Shown: positions 5,503 through 37,551 of the stretch, piece by piece | How the letters are laid out: each line of letters opens with the position of its first letter | Numbering within the stretch: position 1 is the stretch's first letter | DNA from: Alphaproteobacteria bacterium | GTDB lineage: Bacteria; Pseudomonadota; Alphaproteobacteria; SMXP01 | Direction of reading: 5' to 3' | Length of the DNA stretch: 38,786 nucleotides | NCBI GenBank assembly: GCA_028280675.1 | Contig: JANQLI010000148.1 | Location: 1 to 38,786, forward strand | Program-made: the position numbers and the translations under genes | The notes under the pieces: generated by a model | What the model was told of the DNA's origin: nothing | The model's database searches: none | What the model saw: only the letters and a program-made list of their open reading frames with translations

Positions 5503-5512
5503 ATACTAGTAT
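5503..5512. promoter_or_regulatory. Candidate regulon operator, site 2 (ATACTAGTAT, perfect palindrome)
   Basis: About 35 nt upstream of the gentisate dioxygenase start (- strand). Confidence 0.65.
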
Positions 5513-9961: not shown

Positions 9962-9971
9962 ATACTAGTAT
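9962..9971. promoter_or_regulatory. Candidate regulon operator, site 4 (ATACTAGTAT, perfect palindrome)
   Basis: Upstream of the NahD-like isomerase (10075); continues into TATGCT -10-like sequence. Confidence 0.65.
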
Positions 9972-13518: not shown

Positions 13519-13528
13519 ATGCTAGTAT
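13519..13528. promoter_or_regulatory. Candidate regulon operator, site 5 (ATGCTAGTAT)
   Basis: About 100 nt upstream of the aldehyde dehydrogenase/dioxygenase operon; TTGAAT (13499-13504) then 18 nt to TAGTAT. Confidence 0.62.
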
Positions 13529-20134: not shown

Positions 20135-20674
20135 ATCAGATATGCAATTTCAATAACCCTCTATCTGTTAATCTCTATCATGAGGGGTTCTTGGGTTATT
20201 TGAGACTTGTGACGGCGATTCATAGCTTTAGGCGTGCTTTCTATAGATATTGAATCTTTCTGAAAGTTGACCGCTTCTCTCCAGATCAGGTGTGCGTAAT
20301 GTGAAGTTAATACACAAAGAGTCATAGTGGCTGATCAAACTTATAAGCCTCTTTATGAAGGCGAAGAGCGCTAAAGCATAGAATCTATCAGGCATATACG
20401 CTGGTAGACTGTCCCTCAGTTACATTCTGAGTGGGATCAATATGTCTCTTCTTTGTATGCTGTAAGTCAATGTTTCATGTTTTCAGCTATGCCAGCCTAA
20501 GGACATCATAGGTCGCGGGTATGGCATTTATTACCCTCGATGAAGATCAGAATAATCTGCCCAGTAGAAGCCAAATGTGAGGGGGGTGTATTCTTTAGGA
20601 TGCGTTGACTCTCGGGCACTAGAACGAATCAGCGCCGAATTTTACGGGAAAATGCGTAAAAGGCTTTACTTATA

Positions 20675-20684
20675 TGCTAGAATG
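20675..20684. promoter_or_regulatory. Candidate regulon operator, site 7 (ATGCTAGAAT)
   Basis: Upstream of the flavin monooxygenase/meta-cleavage operon (20817 onward). Confidence 0.55.
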
Positions 20685-20816: not shown

Positions 20817-21986
20817 ATGAACGATATACCTACGCCAGTCAGTCTTATTAATGCAGCGAGAGCAATGAAGCCTCAGTTGCGGGAACGCGCAGCTCAGGTG
20901 GAAGAAGCGCGCATTGTTGGTAGAGAAACAATTGCGGAGTTCCGAGAAGCGGGTTTCTTTAAAATTCTTCAGCCTAAATCTTATGGTGGTTATGAACTTC
21001 CGCCGGAAGTTTTATCTGATGTTATATTTGAAGTGGCTTCTGCTTGTGGGTCAAGCGGTTGGACACTTGCCGTCTTAGCGCTGCATCAATGGGAAGTTCA
21101 GCTTCTCCCGGAAGATGCTATTGCTGACATTTGGGGTGATGATCCAAATGTACTTTTATCGTCTGCTTATGCGCCATCCGGAAATGTGAAGCCAGTAGAT
21201 GGTGGATATGAGCTGAGTGGTGAGTGGCCGTATTCAAGCGGATGTGATCATGCCGACTGGGCGATTGTTGGTGGGGTGCGTCCACCACGGTCGGATGATG
21301 AGGTTCCTGCGCTTTGTGGTTTCTTCGTTCCAAGGTCAGAATATGAGATTATCGATGACTGGAACGTCATGGGGTTGGCTGGTACCGGGAGTAAAAGAAT
21401 TAAGATGGATGGTGTTTTTGTTCCAGAACGTCACCAGCATGCGATATTTGGTTCTGCACCACCACCTCCTGAAGATGCAAATACGATTTATAAAATTCCG
21501 TTTGCTCTCGTTTTTGTAGAAATGTTGTCTGCTGCCGTGCATGGCATGGCCATGGGTATGTTGGACCAATTTATAGAACGCAATAAAGCGCGTCTCGGTG
21601 CGTTGGATCAGTCAAAGTATTCTGAGAATTCAGACATTCACCGATACATTGCAGAAACGGAATTTGTGATCCGTTCATCACGGATGCTGAGTCATGAAAA
21701 TCAACGAACGGCATTTAACTTAGCTGAAGCGGGGCAAGAACAGGCGCTTATAGACAAAGTTCGGCACTTATGGGAAGCCGCTAAGTCCGTGCACAATTGT
21801 TCTGAAACCTGTTCAAAACTCTATTCCGTAAGTGGCGCGCATACCCTTTTTGAAGGTGATTCACTGCAGCGACTCTTCCGTGATTTGCAAAGCGGAACAA
21901 TGCATATGGCCTTTAATTACAACGCATATGCGCGCAACTACGGTGGCATGCATATGGGGCATCCGAATTCAGGGAGTTTTGTATAG
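20817..21986 (+). CDS. Flavin-dependent monooxygenase oxygenase component (acyl-CoA dehydrogenase fold; HsaA/HpaH-C2-like)
   Basis: 389 aa; LRERAAQVEEARIVGRETIAEFREAGFFKILQPKSYGGYELPPEVLSDVIFEVASACGSSGWTLAV; co-directional flavin reductase at 24268. Confidence 0.85.
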   Translation: MNDIPTPVSLINAARAMKPQLRERAAQVEEARIVGRETIAEFREAGFFKILQPKSYGGYELPPEVLSDVIFEVASACGSSGWTLAVLALHQWEVQLLPEDAIADIWGDDPNVLLSSAYAPSGNVKPVDGGYELSGEWPYSSGCDHADWAIVGGVRPPRSDDEVPALCGFFVPRSEYEIIDDWNVMGLAGTGSKRIKMDGVFVPERHQHAIFGSAPPPPEDANTIYKIPFALVFVEMLSAAVHGMAMGMLDQFIERNKARLGALDQSKYSENSDIHRYIAETEFVIRSSRMLSHENQRTAFNLAEAGQEQALIDKVRHLWEAAKSVHNCSETCSKLYSVSGAHTLFEGDSLQRLFRDLQSGTMHMAFNYNAYARNYGGMHMGHPNSGSFV

Positions 21987-22136: not shown

Positions 22137-23369
22137 ATGAAAGTACTTGCATTCCAGCAGGCGCCGTATCGTCATATGCCCGCTGATTTCGCGGAGAAAT
22201 ACAATTCAGTTGTGAATACTCCTTATTTTGAGTTGGTTGATAATCAGCTCATGCATGAGGACCACGTACATTTTATTGATGAGATGTTACATGCAGCGCG
22301 TTGTGGTTTCGATGGAATCGGTCTTACCGAGCATGGTCAATCATCATATGATGTCTTGCCTAATCCCAATTTGCAGCTTGCAGCATTAGCTTATGCAACA
22401 CAATCAGAAGGCCTTGATACTGCGTTAGCGTGTTTGGGTCGTTCGTTGGGTAAAACAAAGGAGCCGCTACGAGTGGCTGAAGAGTATGCGGTTTTGGATC
22501 AAATCAGTGGTGGACGTTTGATCGCAGGTTATCCAATTTCTCTAAGCTTTGACTCAAATATCAACCAAGGTATTCCCCCCATACAGACCCGTGATCGTTT
22601 CGCGGAAAATATTATGTTGATTGATAAGGCTCACAAGGAGAAAGAACCATTTGCGTGGAATGGGAAATACAACAAACACCCACATGTGAATCTCTGGCCG
22701 CGCCCTGTGCAGCCGTCGCTTCCTGTGTGGTCTCCTGCTGTTGGAAATCCGCATACACTTGGTGGAATTCTTGATCGTGATCAGGTGTTTTTATATTTCA
22801 GTTGGTTCGGGCCTAAATTGACGGGTCGCATCTTTGATCGTTATTGGGAGATGGCCGAAGAACGTGGCCGTGACACGAATCCCTATCGACTTGCGTTCCT
22901 GCAATGTGTTGCTGTTGGAGAAACGGATGAAGAAGCGCATAGAGAGTACGGTCCGCACGTGAAAGCGGCATTTAATACTGGTCTTGGCTGTATACCCCAA
23001 TCCAATCTCGGCGTTCCTGGTTATATGGACATTAACGGCGTCGAAGCAGTGACGCGAGATCCGGGTGACTTTGGTATTTTTCCTAAAATGCGTACGGCAG
23101 CATATGAAGAAATCGTCGATGCGCAGGCGTGTATTGTTGGTGGTGTAGATACGGTAGCTGAACAGTTAATCGAGCTCATTAAATCACACCGGATTGGCAA
23201 TTTGTTGCTCATGACACAGCACGGGTCCATGCCAACAGAGCTTACCAAGAAAAACATCAGTCTTGTTGCAGAAAAAGTGATGCCCAAGCTGCGTCAAGCA
23301 TGGTCAGAAGCTGGTTTTGACGCTCAAGGTTGGGAACACAATTGGTGGCCAACCGGACTTACCAACTAA
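22137..23369 (+). CDS. Luciferase-like (LLM class) flavin-dependent oxidoreductase
   Basis: 410 aa; GFDGIGLTEHGQSSYDVLPNP, EEYAVLDQISGGRLIAGYP typical of bacterial luciferase-like monooxygenases. Confidence 0.85.
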   Translation: MKVLAFQQAPYRHMPADFAEKYNSVVNTPYFELVDNQLMHEDHVHFIDEMLHAARCGFDGIGLTEHGQSSYDVLPNPNLQLAALAYATQSEGLDTALACLGRSLGKTKEPLRVAEEYAVLDQISGGRLIAGYPISLSFDSNINQGIPPIQTRDRFAENIMLIDKAHKEKEPFAWNGKYNKHPHVNLWPRPVQPSLPVWSPAVGNPHTLGGILDRDQVFLYFSWFGPKLTGRIFDRYWEMAEERGRDTNPYRLAFLQCVAVGETDEEAHREYGPHVKAAFNTGLGCIPQSNLGVPGYMDINGVEAVTRDPGDFGIFPKMRTAAYEEIVDAQACIVGGVDTVAEQLIELIKSHRIGNLLLMTQHGSMPTELTKKNISLVAEKVMPKLRQAWSEAGFDAQGWEHNWWPTGLTN

Positions 23370-24267: not shown

Positions 24268-25281
24268 ATGAGTGACGCACTCCTCAAAGGGACGAATATG
24301 CATAAGCCGGTATTTGATTCAAATGAATTCAGGCGCTCGCTTGGAACATTTGCAACTGGTGTGACTATCATTACTGTGCGTAGTCCTGATGGAGAACCTA
24401 TTGGCGTAACGGCGAATAGCTTTAGTTCCGTATCCCTTGATCCCCCTCTTGTTCTTTGGAGTTTAGCCAAAAATGCGAAAAGTCTTCCTGCATTTCAAGC
24501 AGCGGAGTACTTTGCAATTCACATTCTTTCGGCAGAACAAGAAGGCTTATCGAATTTATTCGCCTCGCAGGGGGCAGATAAGTTCGGCAACTTGAACACG
24601 GAGCAGGGTATAGGCGATACACCGTTGCTTGATGGATGCTGCACACGGATGCAATGTAAAGTGGCGCATCAATACGAGGGCGGTGATCATATCATATTTG
24701 TTGGAGAGGTCGTTGATCTCGTTAGCAATGATTTAACGCCACTTGTCTTTCAAGCGGGAAAATATTCTTTAGCAGCTCGTAAAACAGATGATACACCATT
24801 GATAAGTAGCTCATCTTCCGGGTTCGATGAGGATTTTTTTGGCTATTTGTTGTGGCGTGCATACTTCCAATTCCAATCTGAAGTTAACAAGCAAGCGCCA
24901 TTCAGAGGCTTCACCAGTCTTGAGTTTTTGATCCTTGTCACGCTCGCACATAATAATTGGCGAGCTGTCGATACACTGTGCGATATGATAGTGCATGATG
25001 GTGATCATGACTTGGTGGGCCAAGCATTGGAATCCTTAGTTGAAAAGGGCCTTCTTCAGGAGAAGGCCGACAAGAATGGATTTAAACTATGCGGTTTGAG
25101 TGAAACCGGAAACGAAAAAGCACTCGAACTACTCACTATCGCCAAATCAACGGAATCCACATTTTTGGAAAGGCTTGGGCAGAAGGAAAGTGCTGCCCTC
25201 AAGAATTTACTTAAAGGTTTTATCGTTGAGACGGATACGGGGATACCTCACCCTTGGGAGCGCACTGAAGGTGAAGCCTAA
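24268..25281 (+). CDS. Flavin reductase (HpaC/HsaB-like) fused to a C-terminal MarR-like winged-helix domain
   Basis: 337 aa; N-terminal FRRSLGTFATGVTIITVRSPDGEPIGVTANSFSSVSLDPPLVLWSL; about 150 extra C-terminal residues with wHTH-like FTSLEFLILVTLAHNNWRAVDTLCDMI...LVGQALESLVEKGLLQE. Confidence 0.83.
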   Translation: MSDALLKGTNMHKPVFDSNEFRRSLGTFATGVTIITVRSPDGEPIGVTANSFSSVSLDPPLVLWSLAKNAKSLPAFQAAEYFAIHILSAEQEGLSNLFASQGADKFGNLNTEQGIGDTPLLDGCCTRMQCKVAHQYEGGDHIIFVGEVVDLVSNDLTPLVFQAGKYSLAARKTDDTPLISSSSSGFDEDFFGYLLWRAYFQFQSEVNKQAPFRGFTSLEFLILVTLAHNNWRAVDTLCDMIVHDGDHDLVGQALESLVEKGLLQEKADKNGFKLCGLSETGNEKALELLTIAKSTESTFLERLGQKESAALKNLLKGFIVETDTGIPHPWERTEGEA

Positions 25282-26313: not shown

Positions 26314-27237
26314 ATGGCAATGACAGGTGTACTGCGTCCAGGTTTCTGCCAATTGCGGGTCTTGGATATGGAAAAATCAATGGTTCACTATCGAGATCGG
26401 ATCGGTCTTGATGAAGTGAGTCAGGAAAAAGATGGTCGTGTGTATTTGAAAGCGCGCGATGAATTTGACCGCCATAGCATTATTTTGCGATCTGCCGATG
26501 AACCGGGTATGGATTGCATGGGTTTTAAAGTGTTAGATGACGAAAGCCTTACCCAGCTTGAAAAGGATCTCACCGCTTTTGGCGTGGATGTCGAGCATAT
26601 TGAGGCAGGTGAGCAGCCCGGTATCGGTCGGCGTATTCGTTTCCAAGCGCCTATGGGGCATATCTTTGATTTTTATGCGGAGATGGAAAAATCGGATAAA
26701 GGCCCAATGGTACAGGACCCGCATGTTTGGGATGAGCAACCCCGCGGTATGCGACCAATCCGTTTTGATCATTGCTTATTGTATGGTGATGAACTGGATG
26801 AAACAGCCGAGATTTTTCAAAAAGTCTTAGGCTTTCAAGTTTCTGAGGTCATTCGCGTTGAAGGGGACGTGATCAATGCATACTTCTTAACATGCAGCAC
26901 GAAGGCGCATGACATTGCTTTGATCCGCTTTCCTGAAAAAGGGAAGTTCCATCATTGCTCCTTTTTATTGGAAGACTGGAATGCCATTGGCAATGCGGCA
27001 GATATAATGACTCGTTACGATATCTCTGTTGATATTGGACCAACACGTCATGGTATTACGCGCGGTAAAACAATCTATTTCTTTGATCCATCGGGAAATC
27101 GCAATGAAGTTTTCTCAGGTGGCTACAACTTCTACCCTGACAATCCTCGCCGTGAATGGTGTGAAGAAGAAGTAGGACGTGCGATTTTCTATTACGAAAA
27201 GCAACTTAATGATCGCTTCATGGGAGTTGTGACCTAA
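26314..27237 (+). CDS. xylE: Catechol 2,3-dioxygenase (type I extradiol, VOC fold)
   Basis: 307 aa; TGVLRPGFCQLRVLDMEKSMVHYRDRIGL...FDHCLLYGDELDETAEIFQKVLGFQ...YFFDPSGNRNEVFSGGY. Confidence 0.93.
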   Translation: MAMTGVLRPGFCQLRVLDMEKSMVHYRDRIGLDEVSQEKDGRVYLKARDEFDRHSIILRSADEPGMDCMGFKVLDDESLTQLEKDLTAFGVDVEHIEAGEQPGIGRRIRFQAPMGHIFDFYAEMEKSDKGPMVQDPHVWDEQPRGMRPIRFDHCLLYGDELDETAEIFQKVLGFQVSEVIRVEGDVINAYFLTCSTKAHDIALIRFPEKGKFHHCSFLLEDWNAIGNAADIMTRYDISVDIGPTRHGITRGKTIYFFDPSGNRNEVFSGGYNFYPDNPRREWCEEEVGRAIFYYEKQLNDRFMGVVT

Positions 27238-28804: not shown

Positions 28805-29608
28805 GTGATGAGTACGATTAGTCACGATGATATTGAACGCGCCGCTTCTCAATTGAGGCAGGCGCACGAAAGTGGCGTTCCATGCGCGCCGCTCAATCAA
28901 TTCATTCCAGCAACGGATATTGAGGCCGGTTACGCCATCCAAAATATGAATACAGATTATTGGATTGCAGAAGGACGCAAACTTGTTGGCCGTAAAACAG
29001 GTTTAACCTCTAAAGCCGTACAGAACCAACTGGGAGTTAATCAACCCGATTTTGGAATGCTCTTTTCAGATATGGCGTATGCCGATGGTGAGGATATATC
29101 TCTATCACGGATGCTACAGCCCAAAGTCGAAGGTGAAATAGCATTTATTCTCGGCCAGGATCTCGATAGTGATCATCTGACATTGGCGGATGTGATAAGC
29201 GCTATTGATTATGCAGTTTGTGCCATTGAGATCGTCGATTCGCGTATTGCAGATTGGCAAATCAAGATTATGGATACCGTTGCAGATAATGCGTCATCGG
29301 GTCTTTACGTTTTGGGAAGTGAGCCGCGAAAACTCGGTGAATTTGATCCCCAACTTTGTGGTATGGTGATCGAACATCGAGGTGAGCCAATTTCGACTGG
29401 TGCTGGTGCCGCATGTTTGGGCAATCCGCTACATGCCACACTCTGGCTTGCAAAAATCATGGTTGATGTGAAACGTCCTTTGAAAAAAGGCGATACGGTC
29501 TTATCCGGTGCTCTTGGCCCAATGGTCAGTGTCACAGGCGAGGGCGTGTATGAGCTTCGCATTGATGGTGTGGGGTCTGTTCGCGCTTCTTTTGTTGATG
29601 GGAAATAG
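28805..29608 (+). CDS. dmpE: 2-oxopent-4-enoate hydratase (2-hydroxypenta-2,4-dienoate hydratase)
   Basis: 267 aa; GRKTGLTSKAVQNQLGVNQPDFGMLFSDM...PKVEGEIAFILGQDL...AIEIVDSRI. Confidence 0.9.
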   Translation: MMSTISHDDIERAASQLRQAHESGVPCAPLNQFIPATDIEAGYAIQNMNTDYWIAEGRKLVGRKTGLTSKAVQNQLGVNQPDFGMLFSDMAYADGEDISLSRMLQPKVEGEIAFILGQDLDSDHLTLADVISAIDYAVCAIEIVDSRIADWQIKIMDTVADNASSGLYVLGSEPRKLGEFDPQLCGMVIEHRGEPISTGAGAACLGNPLHATLWLAKIMVDVKRPLKKGDTVLSGALGPMVSVTGEGVYELRIDGVGSVRASFVDGK

Positions 29609-29618
29609 GTAATCGATA

Positions 29619-30557
29619 ATGTCTAAAGTGAAATGCGCTGTCATTGGATCGGGGAATATTGGAACTGATCTTATGATTAAAATTATCCGAACCAGTGAAA
29701 GTCTTGAGATGGCTGCCATGGTGGGTATTGATCCGGAGTCGGATGGACTTGCTCGTGCAGAGCGTATGGGCGTTGCTTCAACACATAGAGGTATTGATGG
29801 GTTAGTGGAACTAGACTCCTTTGCCGACATAAAAATCGTTTTTGATGCCACCTCAGCCTACGCACATCAAAATCACAATGATATTTTGCAGGCTCATGGC
29901 AAACAGGTTGTTGACCTAACACCAGCTGCCATTGGGCCGTTCACGGTTCCGGTTGTAAATATGGAGCAGAATCTTTCTGAGCAGAACGTCAATATGGTGA
30001 CATGTGGTGGGCAAGCGACGATTCCTATTGTTGCAGCGGTGAGCCGTGTTGCGAATGTGCCTTATGCAGAAATTGTGGCATCAGTATCTTCAAAATCGGC
30101 GGGGCCAGGGACACGTGCGAATATTGACGAGTTCACACGGACAACGGCCCAAGCGATTGAAAGCATCGGAGGTGCAAAAAAAGGTAAAGCGATTATCATA
30201 TTGAACCCGGCCGAACCACCAATGATTATGCGCGATACAGTGTTTACGCTTTCAGACATTGTAGATGAAAAACTCATCGAAGATTCTATTCATAAAATGG
30301 TGGCGGATGTTCAAGCTTATGTTCCCGGCTATCGTCTTAAACAAGATGTACAATTTGAGCGTTACGGTTCCAATAATCCATTGAAAATCCCTGGTTATGG
30401 TGAGTTTGAAGGTCTTAAGTCGTCCGTCTTTCTTGAGGTCGAGGGTGCAGCGCATTACCTGCCGGCCTATGCTGGGAATCTAGACATCATGACGTCTGCG
30501 GCCCTTGGCACGGCGGAGAAGATTGCAGAGCTAAAATACGGCGCTAAAGCGGCATAG
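29619..30557 (+). CDS. dmpF: Acetaldehyde dehydrogenase (acylating)
   Basis: 312 aa; [37 protein letters not shown] catalytic Cys. Confidence 0.93.
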
Positions 30558-30571
30558 GTGGGATCAGTAAG

Positions 30572-31597
30572 ATGTCTAAAAAACTATATATTCAAGATGT
30601 GACGCTACGCGATGGGATGCATGCGATTAAACATCTCTATGGTGTGGATCAAGTACAAGCGATTGCCAAGGCGCTTGATGATGCGGGCGTGGATGCGATT
30701 GAAGTTGCCCATGGGGATGGTCTTTCCGGCACAAGTTTTAATTATGGATTCGGGACTCATACGGATTGGGAATGGTTGGAAGCTGCTGCTGATGTTCTGA
30801 ACAATGCTGTTCTCACCACACTTATCTTACCCGGTATTGCGACAGTGGAGGAACTTAAGCGTGCTTATGACCTCGGCGTGCGGTCTGTGCGTGTTGCGAC
30901 CCATTGCACAGAAGCTGATGTATCAAAACAGCATATCCAGATGGCACGTGAGATCGGGATGGATACCATTGGCTTCCTCATGATGAGTCACATGAATGAG
31001 CCCCAAAAGCTTGCGGAACAAGCAAAGCTGATGGAATCTTATGGGGCGCAATGTGTGTATGTTGTCGATTCGGGTGGTGCTTTGAACATGGATGATGTCC
31101 GAGATCGTCTTAAGGCGTTTGATGAGGTCTTAGACCCAAAGACAGAGCGTGGCATTCATGCCCATCAAAATTTATCGCTTGGTGTCGCAAATTCCATCGT
31201 GGCTGTGCAAAATGGTGTGCGGCGTGTTGATGCTTCTCTGGCAGGCATGGGTGCCGGTGCCGGAAATGCACCCTTGGAAGCCTTTATTGCATGTGCAAAC
31301 CGCTTGGGATGGGAGCATAATTGCGATCTATTCAAACTGATGGACGCGGCGGAGGATTTGGTCCGTCCCATACAAGACCGACCTGTGCGTGTTGATCGAG
31401 AAACATTAAGTCTTGGTTATGCAGGCGTTTATTCGAGCTTTCTGCGTCATGCAGAAACTGCTGCCGAAACTTATGGCTTGGATGTGCGTGAGATTCTTGT
31501 CGAGCTCGGTGCACGTAAAATGGTCGGCGGGCAAGAGGATATGATTGTGGATGTGGCGTTGGATATCTTGAAAGACCGTGAGGGGACGAGTGTATAA
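30572..31597 (+). CDS. dmpG: 4-hydroxy-2-oxovalerate aldolase
   Basis: 341 aa; [60 protein letters not shown] overlap with the next gene. Confidence 0.94.
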
Positions 31598-32415: not shown

Positions 32416-33123
32416 CTAGAGCGTTCCTGTCCGGAATGGTTTGTTGCAAACATGTGTTGCCATTATTCTTTCCGCTCTCGCTGAGTCGCGGTGAGAAATA
32501 ATATCCACGATTTGATCACGTTCTTTATTTGCCTCAGCGATGTTGGCATTAATTTTGGCGGATTGCCCGTTGAACAATAAGAACTCGGACATATGCCATT
32601 GATCGGCTACGCGCTTTGCAATCATCGGGCTACGAGCCATCGAACGTATCAAGCCGTAGAATTCAGAAAGAAGACTTAGAAAATTCTCAGACAATGCTTC
32701 ATCGATCTTTGGAGACGCATGATGGATTTTTTTTGATAGGTCAATTAGAAGCTGAATCTCGTTTTCATCATGCCGTTCGGCAGCTAAGCGAGCCATAAAG
32801 CCTTCTGCTTTGCCAAAAAGACGGAAGAAATCTTCAATCTCTATTCTTGTTGGTGAGATCACTTTCGAGCCAACTTGCGGCGTAATAATCAGATAACCAG
32901 CACTTCGCAAGTGACTCAAGGCCGCTGAGACTGGCGCACGACTTGTTTTGAACTCTTGCGCTAAGTGCAAAGAAGAAATGGGCTCGCCGAATAAGTAAAC
33001 CCCTCGTGCGAGTCTGTGTTCTAATACATCACAAATATATCCAGCTTTACCACCAAGTTTAGAATTGCGATTCTCAGAACGAACACTCCCTCGGTTGGTA
33101 TAAGATTGATCCTGTTGTCTCAT
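32416..33123 (-). CDS. GntR-family transcriptional regulator, paralog 1
   Basis: 235 aa; wHTH FKTSRAPVSAALSHLRSAGYLIITPQVGSKV plus FCD-like C-terminal helical domain. Confidence 0.87.
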   Translation of the reverse strand: MRQQDQSYTNRGSVRSENRNSKLGGKAGYICDVLEHRLARGVYLFGEPISSLHLAQEFKTSRAPVSAALSHLRSAGYLIITPQVGSKVISPTRIEIEDFFRLFGKAEGFMARLAAERHDENEIQLLIDLSKKIHHASPKIDEALSENFLSLLSEFYGLIRSMARSPMIAKRVADQWHMSEFLLFNGQSAKINANIAEANKERDQIVDIISHRDSARAERIMATHVCNKPFRTGTL

Positions 33124-33242: not shown

Positions 33243-33917
33243 TTACGCAACCCAGGAATTTATTTCTTGATTATTATGCATCATGCTTCTGTTAAATTGA
33301 GTTGATTTCCCTTTTAAGAGCAAAGAGCGAATACTCTCTATTTCAACGAAGGGGAGGTCAAGTTTCTTCGCTAAGGATTGACAATACGCTGATGTGCCTA
33401 CCTCGCCTTTTTCATCAAGTATGTCACAGCATGTTATGACATCATAAGGTGTTAAATCGTTTATTAATTGATGTGCACCGGAAATTAATGTTTCGTCTAA
33501 AGAAAATGGTTTCCGTATGACGATGGGCATCACGTGACCAGGTGTTACCAAGTCATTTGCTGTAGCTATTTGTGAACCAGCGGTTCTAATTGTTAATGCG
33601 CGGTCAGCAGCAGAGATTCCGGTTCCATTGCAACTCGCGGCTTCGATAGATTTCAAGTATTCAGGCCTACTTGAGTTGTGTGATGAATTGCATTCCATAG
33701 TTCTCAAACCCAAACGGAAAGCTGTGCGTTCATCCAGCGCAATGCTTAAAAGTCCACGTCCTTCAATAGCCATCAGCGAAGCTAAGTCTTCATGTAGAAG
33801 AGCAGCTACGCCAACGAAAATCCCTCGACCAGCACCATTGTGATGAGATTTATGGCTTAAAATAATTAACTCGCCGCTGGATAGTGATTCTCTTAGGGAA
33901 TTGATGTCTGGTGTCAT
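33243..33917 (-). CDS. RibB-like (3,4-dihydroxy-2-butanone 4-phosphate synthase fold) divergent paralog
   Basis: 224 aa; GTGISAADRALTIR, PGHVMPIV, VITCCDILDEKGEVGT match RibB blocks; the canonical DDEDRENEGD loop reads SHKSHHNGAGRG here. Confidence 0.75.
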   Translation of the reverse strand: MTPDINSLRESLSSGELIILSHKSHHNGAGRGIFVGVAALLHEDLASLMAIEGRGLLSIALDERTAFRLGLRTMECNSSHNSSRPEYLKSIEAASCNGTGISAADRALTIRTAGSQIATANDLVTPGHVMPIVIRKPFSLDETLISGAHQLINDLTPYDVITCCDILDEKGEVGTSAYCQSLAKKLDLPFVEIESIRSLLLKGKSTQFNRSMMHNNQEINSWVA

Positions 33918-33977: not shown

Positions 33978-33987
33978 ATACTAGAAT
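33978..33987. promoter_or_regulatory. Candidate regulon operator, site 8 (ATACTAGAAT)
   Basis: Upstream of the RibB-like gene (-); on the minus strand TTGGAA-N17-TATGTT overlaps it. Confidence 0.6.
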
Positions 33988-34220
33988 AATAGATAGATTC
34001 CAACAAAAATATCACATAGAATAAGGTATTAAAATCAGAGGGTTAAGAAGGATGTAACGTTAGCCTGAGCAGCAGGTGCCTTTAGAATATTGCTGAACTT
34101 ACATGTAAAACCGTTGGCTTATAATCCCTAAATACTATGTGGTTTTCTAAGATTACAGAGTTCCTCTTAGCTGCCAAATCTTCGTTTCCGTGTAAAAAGC
34201 CTAGCAAAATCTATAAAAGT

Positions 34221-34230
34221 ATGCTAGTAT
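34221..34230. promoter_or_regulatory. Candidate regulon operator, site 9 (ATGCTAGTAT)
   Basis: About 36 nt upstream of the ligA-like GTG start. Confidence 0.62.
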
Positions 34231-34266: not shown

Positions 34267-34533
34267 GTGAGCATTAATACGATCGAAAGAGTCCTATGGG
34301 AGGCGATCACATTCCCGGATAAAGCGGAAGTTTTTAGATCACAGCCCGAAGAACATTTTAACAGCTATTTTCATTTAACGTCGCAAGAGAAGCAATTATT
34401 GCATGAAATGGATGTACGCAAAATGGCTGATCTTGGTGCGAGTGAAATGCTTCTTATGCTTGCATGGCAGGTCGTCAGGGGCCCCGAGACTATGAATGAA
34501 TATATGGGACGCATGAATACGCCCAGCAGCTAA
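34267..34533 (+). CDS. LigA-like small subunit of a type II extradiol dioxygenase (GTG start)
   Basis: 88 aa; helical LigA-type protein (ERVLWEAITFPDKAEVFRSQPEEHFNSYFHLTSQEKQLLHEMDVRKMADLGASEMLLML) directly upstream of the LigB-like gene. Confidence 0.82.
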   Translation: MSINTIERVLWEAITFPDKAEVFRSQPEEHFNSYFHLTSQEKQLLHEMDVRKMADLGASEMLLMLAWQVVRGPETMNEYMGRMNTPSS

Positions 34534-34572: not shown

Positions 34573-35400
34573 ATGAGTGAAATAGTTGGTGGCTTTTTAA
34601 TGCCGCATGATCCTTTAATCTCAGCCGAACCAGATGCTCCACCAGCTGAGCAGCGTAAGGCAGTGAAAGATGCATTTGCGACAATAGCGAGCAGATTAAA
34701 AGAGTTGGACGTGGATACGGTGATTGTCGTTGGAGATGATCACTACACTGTTTTCGGTCCACAATGTATACCACGATATTTGATTGGCATTGGCGATGTT
34801 GAAGGACCAGCAGAGCAATGGCTCGGTATTTCACGTAGGCCTATTGAGAACAATGAACCACTTGCGAATCACATTATGCAAGTTGGGTTTGATAACGGTA
34901 TTGATTGGGCGGTTTCCAAAACCCTTCTTATGGACCATTCCACTATTATACCTATTCACTATACCTTAGGGGAAGGAAGTAAGATTAAGTCGATACCCGT
35001 TTATATTAATTCTGGTGTTATGCCGCTCATTTCGAGTCGCCGTGCGGCTGAAGTGGGTCAATTAATAAGAAAAGCTGTTGACTCGTGGTCAGGTGATGAA
35101 CGCGTGGCTATCTTAGGTACGGGTGGCATTAGTCATTGGGTCGGCATGGCTGATATGGGCAAGGTCAATGTGGAATGGGATAAGAAAGTTCTCTCTTTTG
35201 CTGAGGCCGGAGATATTGAAGGTCTGATCGCAATGGAAGACATGGATGTGTTCCATGAATCTGGAAATGGCGCACTTGAAATCAAGAACTGGATTGTGGC
35301 CATGGCAGCTGTACCGGAGATGAAGGCCGACATCATTGCCTATGAACCGATACCTGAATGGGTCTGTGGGTGTGGTTTTGCAGAGCTCAAGGCCGCTTAA
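34573..35400 (+). CDS. LigB-like catalytic subunit of a type II extradiol dioxygenase (protocatechuate 4,5-/gallate dioxygenase family)
   Basis: 275 aa; candidate metal/catalytic His in FLMPHDPL, VIVVGDDHYTVF, GTGGISHWVG and acidic region FHESGNGALEIKNW. Confidence 0.87.
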   Translation: MSEIVGGFLMPHDPLISAEPDAPPAEQRKAVKDAFATIASRLKELDVDTVIVVGDDHYTVFGPQCIPRYLIGIGDVEGPAEQWLGISRRPIENNEPLANHIMQVGFDNGIDWAVSKTLLMDHSTIIPIHYTLGEGSKIKSIPVYINSGVMPLISSRRAAEVGQLIRKAVDSWSGDERVAILGTGGISHWVGMADMGKVNVEWDKKVLSFAEAGDIEGLIAMEDMDVFHESGNGALEIKNWIVAMAAVPEMKADIIAYEPIPEWVCGCGFAELKAA

Positions 35401-36813: not shown

Positions 36814-37551
36814 CTACTTAAGGGTTCCAGTTCGTAATGGCTTGCCACGAACATGTGCTTCCATGGCCTGCTCTGCAGCATCAACATCTCGATTCTCGAT
36901 GGCCGCGACGACCTCATTGCGCTCTTTGTTTGCTTGTGCAAGATTGATGTAAACATTGGATGTGCGACCATTGAAGAGTAGGAACTCTGACATCCGCCAC
37001 TGACTGGAAACACGTCGCGCTTCCATCGGACTTCGCGCCATGCTCCTTATGGTGCTATGAAAAGAAGCAACAAGGTCCAAGAATTCGTCTGATACTTGCT
37101 CATTCTTCTTTTTCGGTGTTGCTTTTTTAATGCGTTTCGATATGTCGCGGAGAGCGTCACATTCACCATCTTCATGCCGTTCAGCCGCCAATCCAGCCAT
37201 GAATCCTTCTGCTTTGCCGAAGAGATGAAAAAAGTCTTCGATTTCCTGTGTTGTTGGAGAAACCACACGACATCCAACTTGAGGAGTGATGACAAGAAAG
37301 CCTGCACTACGCAAATGATTGAGCGCTGTCATAACGGGTGCACGACTTGCATTGAATTCTTCGACTAATTCGACAGTCGAAATGCTCTCGCCGAATAAAT
37401 AGTTTCCACGTGCGAGGCGGTATTCCAGCTCCTCACAGATGTAGCCTGCTTTACCACCGAGGGCCGTCATATTCTCACCTAAATTCATACCATTTCCAAT
37501 AGCATGAAGCTGACTTTGTTGTCTTTTGTCTCTCATTGGAGTCGCTGCCAC
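36814..37551 (-). CDS. GntR-family transcriptional regulator, paralog 2
   Basis: 245 aa; clearly similar to the 32416-33123 product over its length (e.g. NASRAPVMTALNHLRSAGFLVITPQVGCRVVSPTTQEIEDFFHLFGKAEGFMAGLAAERH). Confidence 0.87.
   Translation of the reverse strand: MAATPMRDKRQQSQLHAIGNGMNLGENMTALGGKAGYICEELEYRLARGNYLFGESISTVELVEEFNASRAPVMTALNHLRSAGFLVITPQVGCRVVSPTTQEIEDFFHLFGKAEGFMAGLAAERHEDGECDALRDISKRIKKATPKKKNEQVSDEFLDLVASFHSTIRSMARSPMEARRVSSQWRMSEFLLFNGRTSNVYINLAQANKERNEVVAAIENRDVDAAEQAMEAHVRGKPLRTGTLK

Follow-up and report, generated by a model that had tools for sequence, protein, structure and literature searches.

A RibB-like protein encoded within a regulon for aromatic catabolism belongs, judged by its sequence, to a rare subfamily of the RibB fold. 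RibB is 3,4-dihydroxy-2-butanone-4-phosphate (DHBP) synthase, an enzyme that makes vitamin B2. From the residues at its former active site, the RibB-like protein is almost certainly not a DHBP synthase, and its job in degradation clusters is probably different from riboflavin synthesis. We propose that it is a RibB-fold enzyme that was re-specialised for catabolism and that works independently of metal and phosphate; we put the probability of this at a little under one half. The gene lies in a stretch of 38,786 nucleotides ("the window"), which is the whole of contig C321 from a 2.88-Mb, 84%-complete alphaproteobacterial genome assembly.

A RibB-like protein with an altered active site

The gene (33,243–33,917, minus strand) has an ATG start and an intact open reading frame for 224 amino acids. 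The initial annotation had described an open reading frame with RibB landmarks, and we recovered it at exactly those coordinates, with the quoted motifs as written. PF00926 is its only Pfam domain (residues 9–196; 91.9 bits, E = 4.7e-26, cutoff 26.4), and its significant matches among solved structures are DHBP synthases. The protein shares with DHBP synthase (EC 4.1.99.12; PF00926, TIGR00506) the same domain at full length, the TGIS loop, R114, the PGH motif, and the overall layout. But it lies in a catabolic context, and its score with TIGR00506, the equivalog model for RibB, is just 71.2 bits (cutoff 177.45 bits). RibBA and RibBX have the RibB-type domain in common with it, but they combine this domain with a GTP-cyclohydrolase-II-like domain; our protein has neither the C-terminal RibA-like domain nor the catalytic loop. 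The AlphaFold2 model, built from a shallow alignment of three sequences, is poor (pLDDT 54), and the pocket described below is predicted from the sequence alignment. Codon usage is less typical in this gene than in its neighbours and does not by itself prove the reading frame. (A third PF00926 match in the same genome, on contig C350, falls within a relaxase-like coding region and is spurious.)

In E. coli RibB, E38 and H153 bind the metal, while R150 and the H153-T154 block bind phosphate. We aligned the RibB-like protein to its relatives and to 20 canonical proteins (RibB from E. coli K-12, the RibBA from the genome of the window, and 18 others), and we use the E. coli numbering unless stated otherwise. 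The acidic loop is replaced, as the initial annotation had claimed: DDEDRENEGD of E. coli aligns to HKSHHNGAGR, with the substitutions D33H, R37H, E38N, E40A, and D42R at positions where all 20 canonical proteins have the canonical residue. R150E, H153L, and T154I alter the phosphate and metal sites, and C67 is replaced by serine. E174 is replaced by aspartate; the initial annotation had read CDI in place of CEL. SGAHQLIND had been equated with GHTEATID; that motif is present as written, but it offers no histidine at position 153, which is also lost from the other members of the clade described below (8 of 8 in total). T107 (T99 in the protein's own numbering), G108, R114, and H136 (H128) are retained.

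The same genome encodes a canonical protein of RibBA length on contig C229, with the loop DAEDRENEGD and with HTEA and CEI, and the sequence downstream of it resembles RibH (as judged by eye). A separate canonical ribB, which the initial annotation had suggested looking for, is thus present, so the organism does not need the RibB-like gene for riboflavin. DHBP synthesis is very unlikely because the metal- and phosphate-site residues were lost instead of being displaced, and because of this separate RibBA; here we agree with the initial annotation. Since the fold and the TGISAADR and PGH motifs are retained, we also considered that the protein might still be a DHBP synthase with its catalytic residues in shifted positions, which the initial annotation had named as a refutation of its reading. 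However, its loop has no acidic residues, every clade member lacks the histidine of HTEA, none of them has a complete acidic loop, and a canonical RibBA is encoded in the same genome. We consider this explanation extremely unlikely.

A conserved clade with new invariant residues

Using exact peptide patterns, we found no close homologues in GTDB genomes or in viral contigs. About 790 sampled alphaproteobacterial and proteobacterial genomes had canonical RibB, apart from two degenerate proteins of another group, and no clade member was recognised in the plasmid and phage collections. A search of 251 genomes from one family (the Sphingomonadaceae, by its named members) gave four relatives: G864 (E = 4.5e-35), G970 (1.4e-32), G936 (1.4e-23), and G782. 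Scanning with three of the relatives added Sphingobium algorifonticola TLA-22 and the Sphingomonadaceae assembly BROCD036, and the last family search added G1249. These seven proteins and the one from the window make up the clade. Clade proteins are found in 6 of the family's 401 sampled genomes, or about 1.5% (this count includes the members known earlier), and one of the six, G1223, has the same contig as BROCD036. The clade profile (A2) was too general and recovered canonical RibB throughout.

A maximum-likelihood tree splits the clade from canonical RibB and from a second degenerate group with support of 100/100 (99.9/100 in an earlier tree). Arginine replaces D42 and cysteine replaces G104 in 8 of 8 members, while aspartate replaces E174 and leucine replaces T176 in all 7 members whose sequence covers that region. 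By comparison, all 20 canonical proteins have D42, G104, and E174. In the subfamily's own numbering, the diagnostic residues are R31 (8 of 8, in a GxGRG-type loop), C96 (8 of 8), H128 (the retained H136, 8 of 8), and D165 (7 of 7). R150 is replaced in the members that were tabulated, and the old T-G-I-S loop is retained. Compared to RibB, the window's protein is without the acidic loop, the HTEA block, and E174, and it has the clade's new invariant Arg, Cys, and Asp. It forms its own long branch, with glycine at position 106, where most others have glutamate, and aspartate at position 113, where the others have glutamate.

The uniform replacements at former catalytic positions favour a new function over decay. 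A decaying RibB copy without any function could account for the loss of so many catalytic residues, for the fast divergence, and for the less typical codon usage. But the reading frame is intact and has an operator of the regulon, and the new residues are invariant across roughly 35–50% identity and several genera. Also, in the closest pair (G936 and BROCD036, with 14 differences in 408 bases), dN is 0.017 and dS is 0.088, for a dN/dS of 0.19. The conserved clade largely refutes decay, and we regard it as highly improbable.

Several other RibB-like proteins have departed from the canonical form or lie near flavin-related genes. The second degenerate group, also from the Sphingomonadaceae (L036, L037, L051–L064, and L086; with GDRLRGGDIDF and CSIMRDDGEMA), has likewise lost E38, E40, H153, and E174. 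But it has a different loop, it keeps D42, R150, and G104, and the tree places it in a separate clade, which rules it out as the relative of our proteins. In the two loci of this group that were read for their neighbours, the gene lies between FMN-reductase-like and glycerol genes. One protein of RibBA length (L090; G779:C11:279271) has a third altered loop, DDDNPASTGD, with GQVEA in place of GHTEA and CKI in place of CEI. Accessory RibB proteins on plasmids of Sphingobium AntQ-1, Croceicoccus marinus, and Rhodococcus DMU1 (L112–L114) have largely canonical catalytic residues and are encoded near luciferase-like monooxygenase (LLM) or flavin reductase genes.

We also noticed that all 7 complete clade members end in alanine (WVA, QFA, QFA, DCA, EAA, HFA, and FGA; the window's protein, L071, L072, L073, L074, L079, and L110). 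The pattern could mark a C-terminal signal, or it could be coincidence.

Catabolic neighbourhoods and regulators

As the initial annotation stated, the RibB-like gene is divergent from ligAB; 349 bp separate the start codons. These genes encode an 88-amino-acid LigA-like small subunit (34,267–34,533, plus strand; PF07746 at 18.6 bits, which is below the cutoff of 25.3) and a LigB-type class III extradiol dioxygenase (34,573–35,400, plus strand; PF02900). Compared with its class III counterparts in the sphingomonad clusters, the LigB-type protein shows only 23–25% identity. On the other side, a GntR/FCD regulator (32,416–33,123, minus strand) lies on the same strand as the RibB-like gene, 119 bp past its 3' end; a second GntR/FCD regulator (36,814–37,551, minus strand) is 58% identical to the first. 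The plus strand also encodes an acyl-CoA-dehydrogenase-fold protein that is a candidate HsaA-like monooxygenase (20,817–21,986; PF02771/PF08028), an LLM (22,137–23,369; PF00296), a flavin reductase (24,268–25,281; PF01613), and a catechol 2,3-dioxygenase (26,314–27,237; TIGR03211, above cutoff). These are followed by a 2-hydroxydienoate hydratase homologue (28,805–29,608), an acylating acetaldehyde dehydrogenase (29,619–30,557), and a 4-hydroxy-2-oxovalerate aldolase (30,572–31,597), which are 40%, 69–75%, and 77–81% identical to their counterparts in the sphingomonad clusters, where the latter two also lie beside RibB-like genes.

A candidate operator at 33,978 had been proposed from the window alone, and it stands: the window contains 7 palindromes of the form ATNCTAGNAT, versus 0.58 expected, whereas only 11 occur in the whole 2.88-Mb genome, of which the window makes up 1.35%. 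All seven are intergenic and ahead of catabolic or regulatory genes. They are ATACTAGAAT at 2,976–2,985, ATACTAGTAT at 5,503–5,512 and 9,962–9,971, ATGCTAGTAT at 13,519–13,528, ATGCTAGAAT at 20,674–20,683 (upstream of the HsaA-like candidate), ATACTAGAAT at 33,978–33,987 (60 bp upstream of the RibB-like start), and ATGCTAGTAT at 34,221–34,230 (upstream of the ligA-like gene). The last two lie between the RibB-like gene and ligA, one for each direction. Outside the window, the sole site that fits the tighter consensus ATRCTAGWAT is inside a coding gene (G000:C217:5072). Because it has this operator in common with other genes of the window, the RibB-like gene can be placed in the aromatic regulon, as was claimed. 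A weak promoter-like match (33,986–34,015, minus strand; such matches are near chance) has a -10 element that overlaps the operator at 33,978, as expected for a repressor. The two GntR/FCD paralogues are the likely regulators of the ATNCTAGNAT regulon, and either may bind these sites.

One common set of genes, with lower meta-cleavage genes among them, contains the RibB-like gene in G864, G970, and S. algorifonticola. It comprises an LLM, an alpha/beta hydrolase, a class III extradiol dioxygenase, a DAO-type oxidoreductase, an SMP-30-type protein, an SDR, an old-yellow-enzyme homologue, a MalT/LuxR-type regulator, and the RibB-like gene, followed by the hydratase, the acetaldehyde dehydrogenase, and the aldolase. 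(The S. algorifonticola LLM was outside the locus that was first read; a separate search found it, and it is 78% identical to the LLM from G864.) In two further lineages, represented by G936, G782, and BROCD036, the RibB-like gene is directly behind another LLM, in clusters that also have acyl-CoA-ligase-like genes and, where read, TetR-like ones (named by resemblance; the G782 LLM alone was domain-scanned). In G1249, the gene is amid hydantoinase-like, amidohydrolase-like, and cupin-like genes (also named by sequence resemblance). We noticed no extradiol enzyme near the RibB-like gene in the G936, G782, BROCD036, or G1249 loci. So linkage to ring-cleavage genes, which the initial annotation proposed to survey, is kept in the three Sphingomonadaceae, while other lineages have an LLM or hydantoinase-like setting instead; this implies that a role specific to the product of ligAB is not general. 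An LLM is encoded beside or within the cluster in the window and at 6 of the 7 relatives' loci, with none noticed in the 20 kb seen of G1249. Between the three settings, the LLMs share just 24–32% identity, so the association is with a class of enzyme.

The main rival to our proposal is that the protein is a non-enzymatic accessory or co-regulator, a ligand-binding partner whose old pocket binds a pathway intermediate and which modulates the adjacent transcription factor. In four clusters, a regulator is directly 3' of the RibB-like gene on the same strand: the GntR gene of the window and the MalT/LuxR genes of the three sphingomonads, where the genes overlap by 4 bp in S. algorifonticola and also overlap, as called, in G864. 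Furthermore, between the sphingomonad clusters, the RibB-like proteins are 48–50% identical, which matches the LuxR protein (45–56%) and not most of the enzymes (68–88%; LigB is at 54–66%). This rate of divergence suits an accessory protein better than a core enzyme. However, the regulators are from unrelated families (GntR in the window, MalT/LuxR or TetR elsewhere), which implies that the RibB-like gene is not bound to one type of regulator. There is no regulator 3' of the gene in G936, G782, BROCD036, or G1249, where it follows LLM or catabolic genes, and the Cys, Arg, and Asp that uniformly replace the old residues look like catalytic residues. We think a co-regulator unlikely, though worth taking seriously.

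Another role that we considered is helping to supply or handle flavin for the pathway's flavin-dependent monooxygenases. The protein might, for instance, bind FMN or a precursor of flavin, and it would be the relic of an accessory RibB that was recruited to boost flavin synthesis. Accessory RibB genes do occur with LLM or flavin reductases in catabolic clusters, as on the Sphingobium AntQ-1, Croceicoccus, and Rhodococcus DMU1 plasmids, whose long RibB proteins recall RibBA and RibBX. One accessory RibB, encoded by orf2560 in the ipp cluster of Rhodococcus D-6, is induced together with a two-component monooxygenase (PMC12442392). This RibB homologue has 42% identity to a RibBA, and its listed function is simply that of a synthase (PMC12442392). 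Its gene sits in an inducible cluster for aromatic compounds, alongside a two-component flavin monooxygenase and an extradiol-type dioxygenase (PMC12442392), a setting comparable to that of our gene. Our protein is altered at the active-site residues of RibB. A flavin role would also fit the frequent LLM genes at the relatives' loci and in the window, and the FMN-reductase-like gene that adjoins the separate degenerate group. But the residues for making the flavin precursor are lost, the LLMs are from distant subfamilies, and the G1249 locus lacks a noticed LLM. Also, RibB itself is not known to bind flavin. A flavin role for the clade is therefore quite unlikely in our view, but accessory RibB genes in flavin-monooxygenase clusters may be the clade's origin.

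A proposed role in catabolism

We propose instead that a RibB subfamily departed from riboflavin synthesis and was re-specialised as a catabolic enzyme. At the old pocket, the Arg/Cys/His/Asp set (R31, C96, H128, and D165) would form a metal-free active site. The ligand would be a small, non-phosphorylated keto/enol or acid compound that arises downstream of a flavin monooxygenase or of a ring-opening step, and the reaction might be an isomerisation, dehydration, or cleavage of that compound. Our proposal is consistent with the separation of the clade at 100/100, with the uniform new residues at former catalytic positions, with the persistence of the gene in catabolic clusters with oxygenases, and with the operator that it has in common with the aromatic regulon. 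Two observations argue against it: the RibB-like protein diverges faster than most adjacent enzymes, much like LuxR, and the usual steps of the meta pathway already have standard enzymes. More speculatively, the Arg/Cys/His/Asp set may replace the RibB metal centre in a new, metal-independent activity whose substrate is a non-phosphorylated intermediate in the breakdown of aromatics or heterocycles; this would be the fold's first function outside of riboflavin synthesis.

Our literature search turned up no account of a RibB subfamily that works outside riboflavin synthesis (coverage of subscription journals was thin). Accessory RibB in catabolic clusters is already on record; as far as we found, no paper reports a conserved clade whose active site has been re-made.

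Proteins with PF00926 are routinely annotated as DHBP synthase, and for this clade, which is a conserved exception, that annotation is very probably wrong. Sphingobium algorifonticola TLA-22 is a named and cultured carrier of a clade protein. If the new function is enzymatic, then an unrecognised step in breakdown pathways with LLMs and extradiol dioxygenases would become testable.
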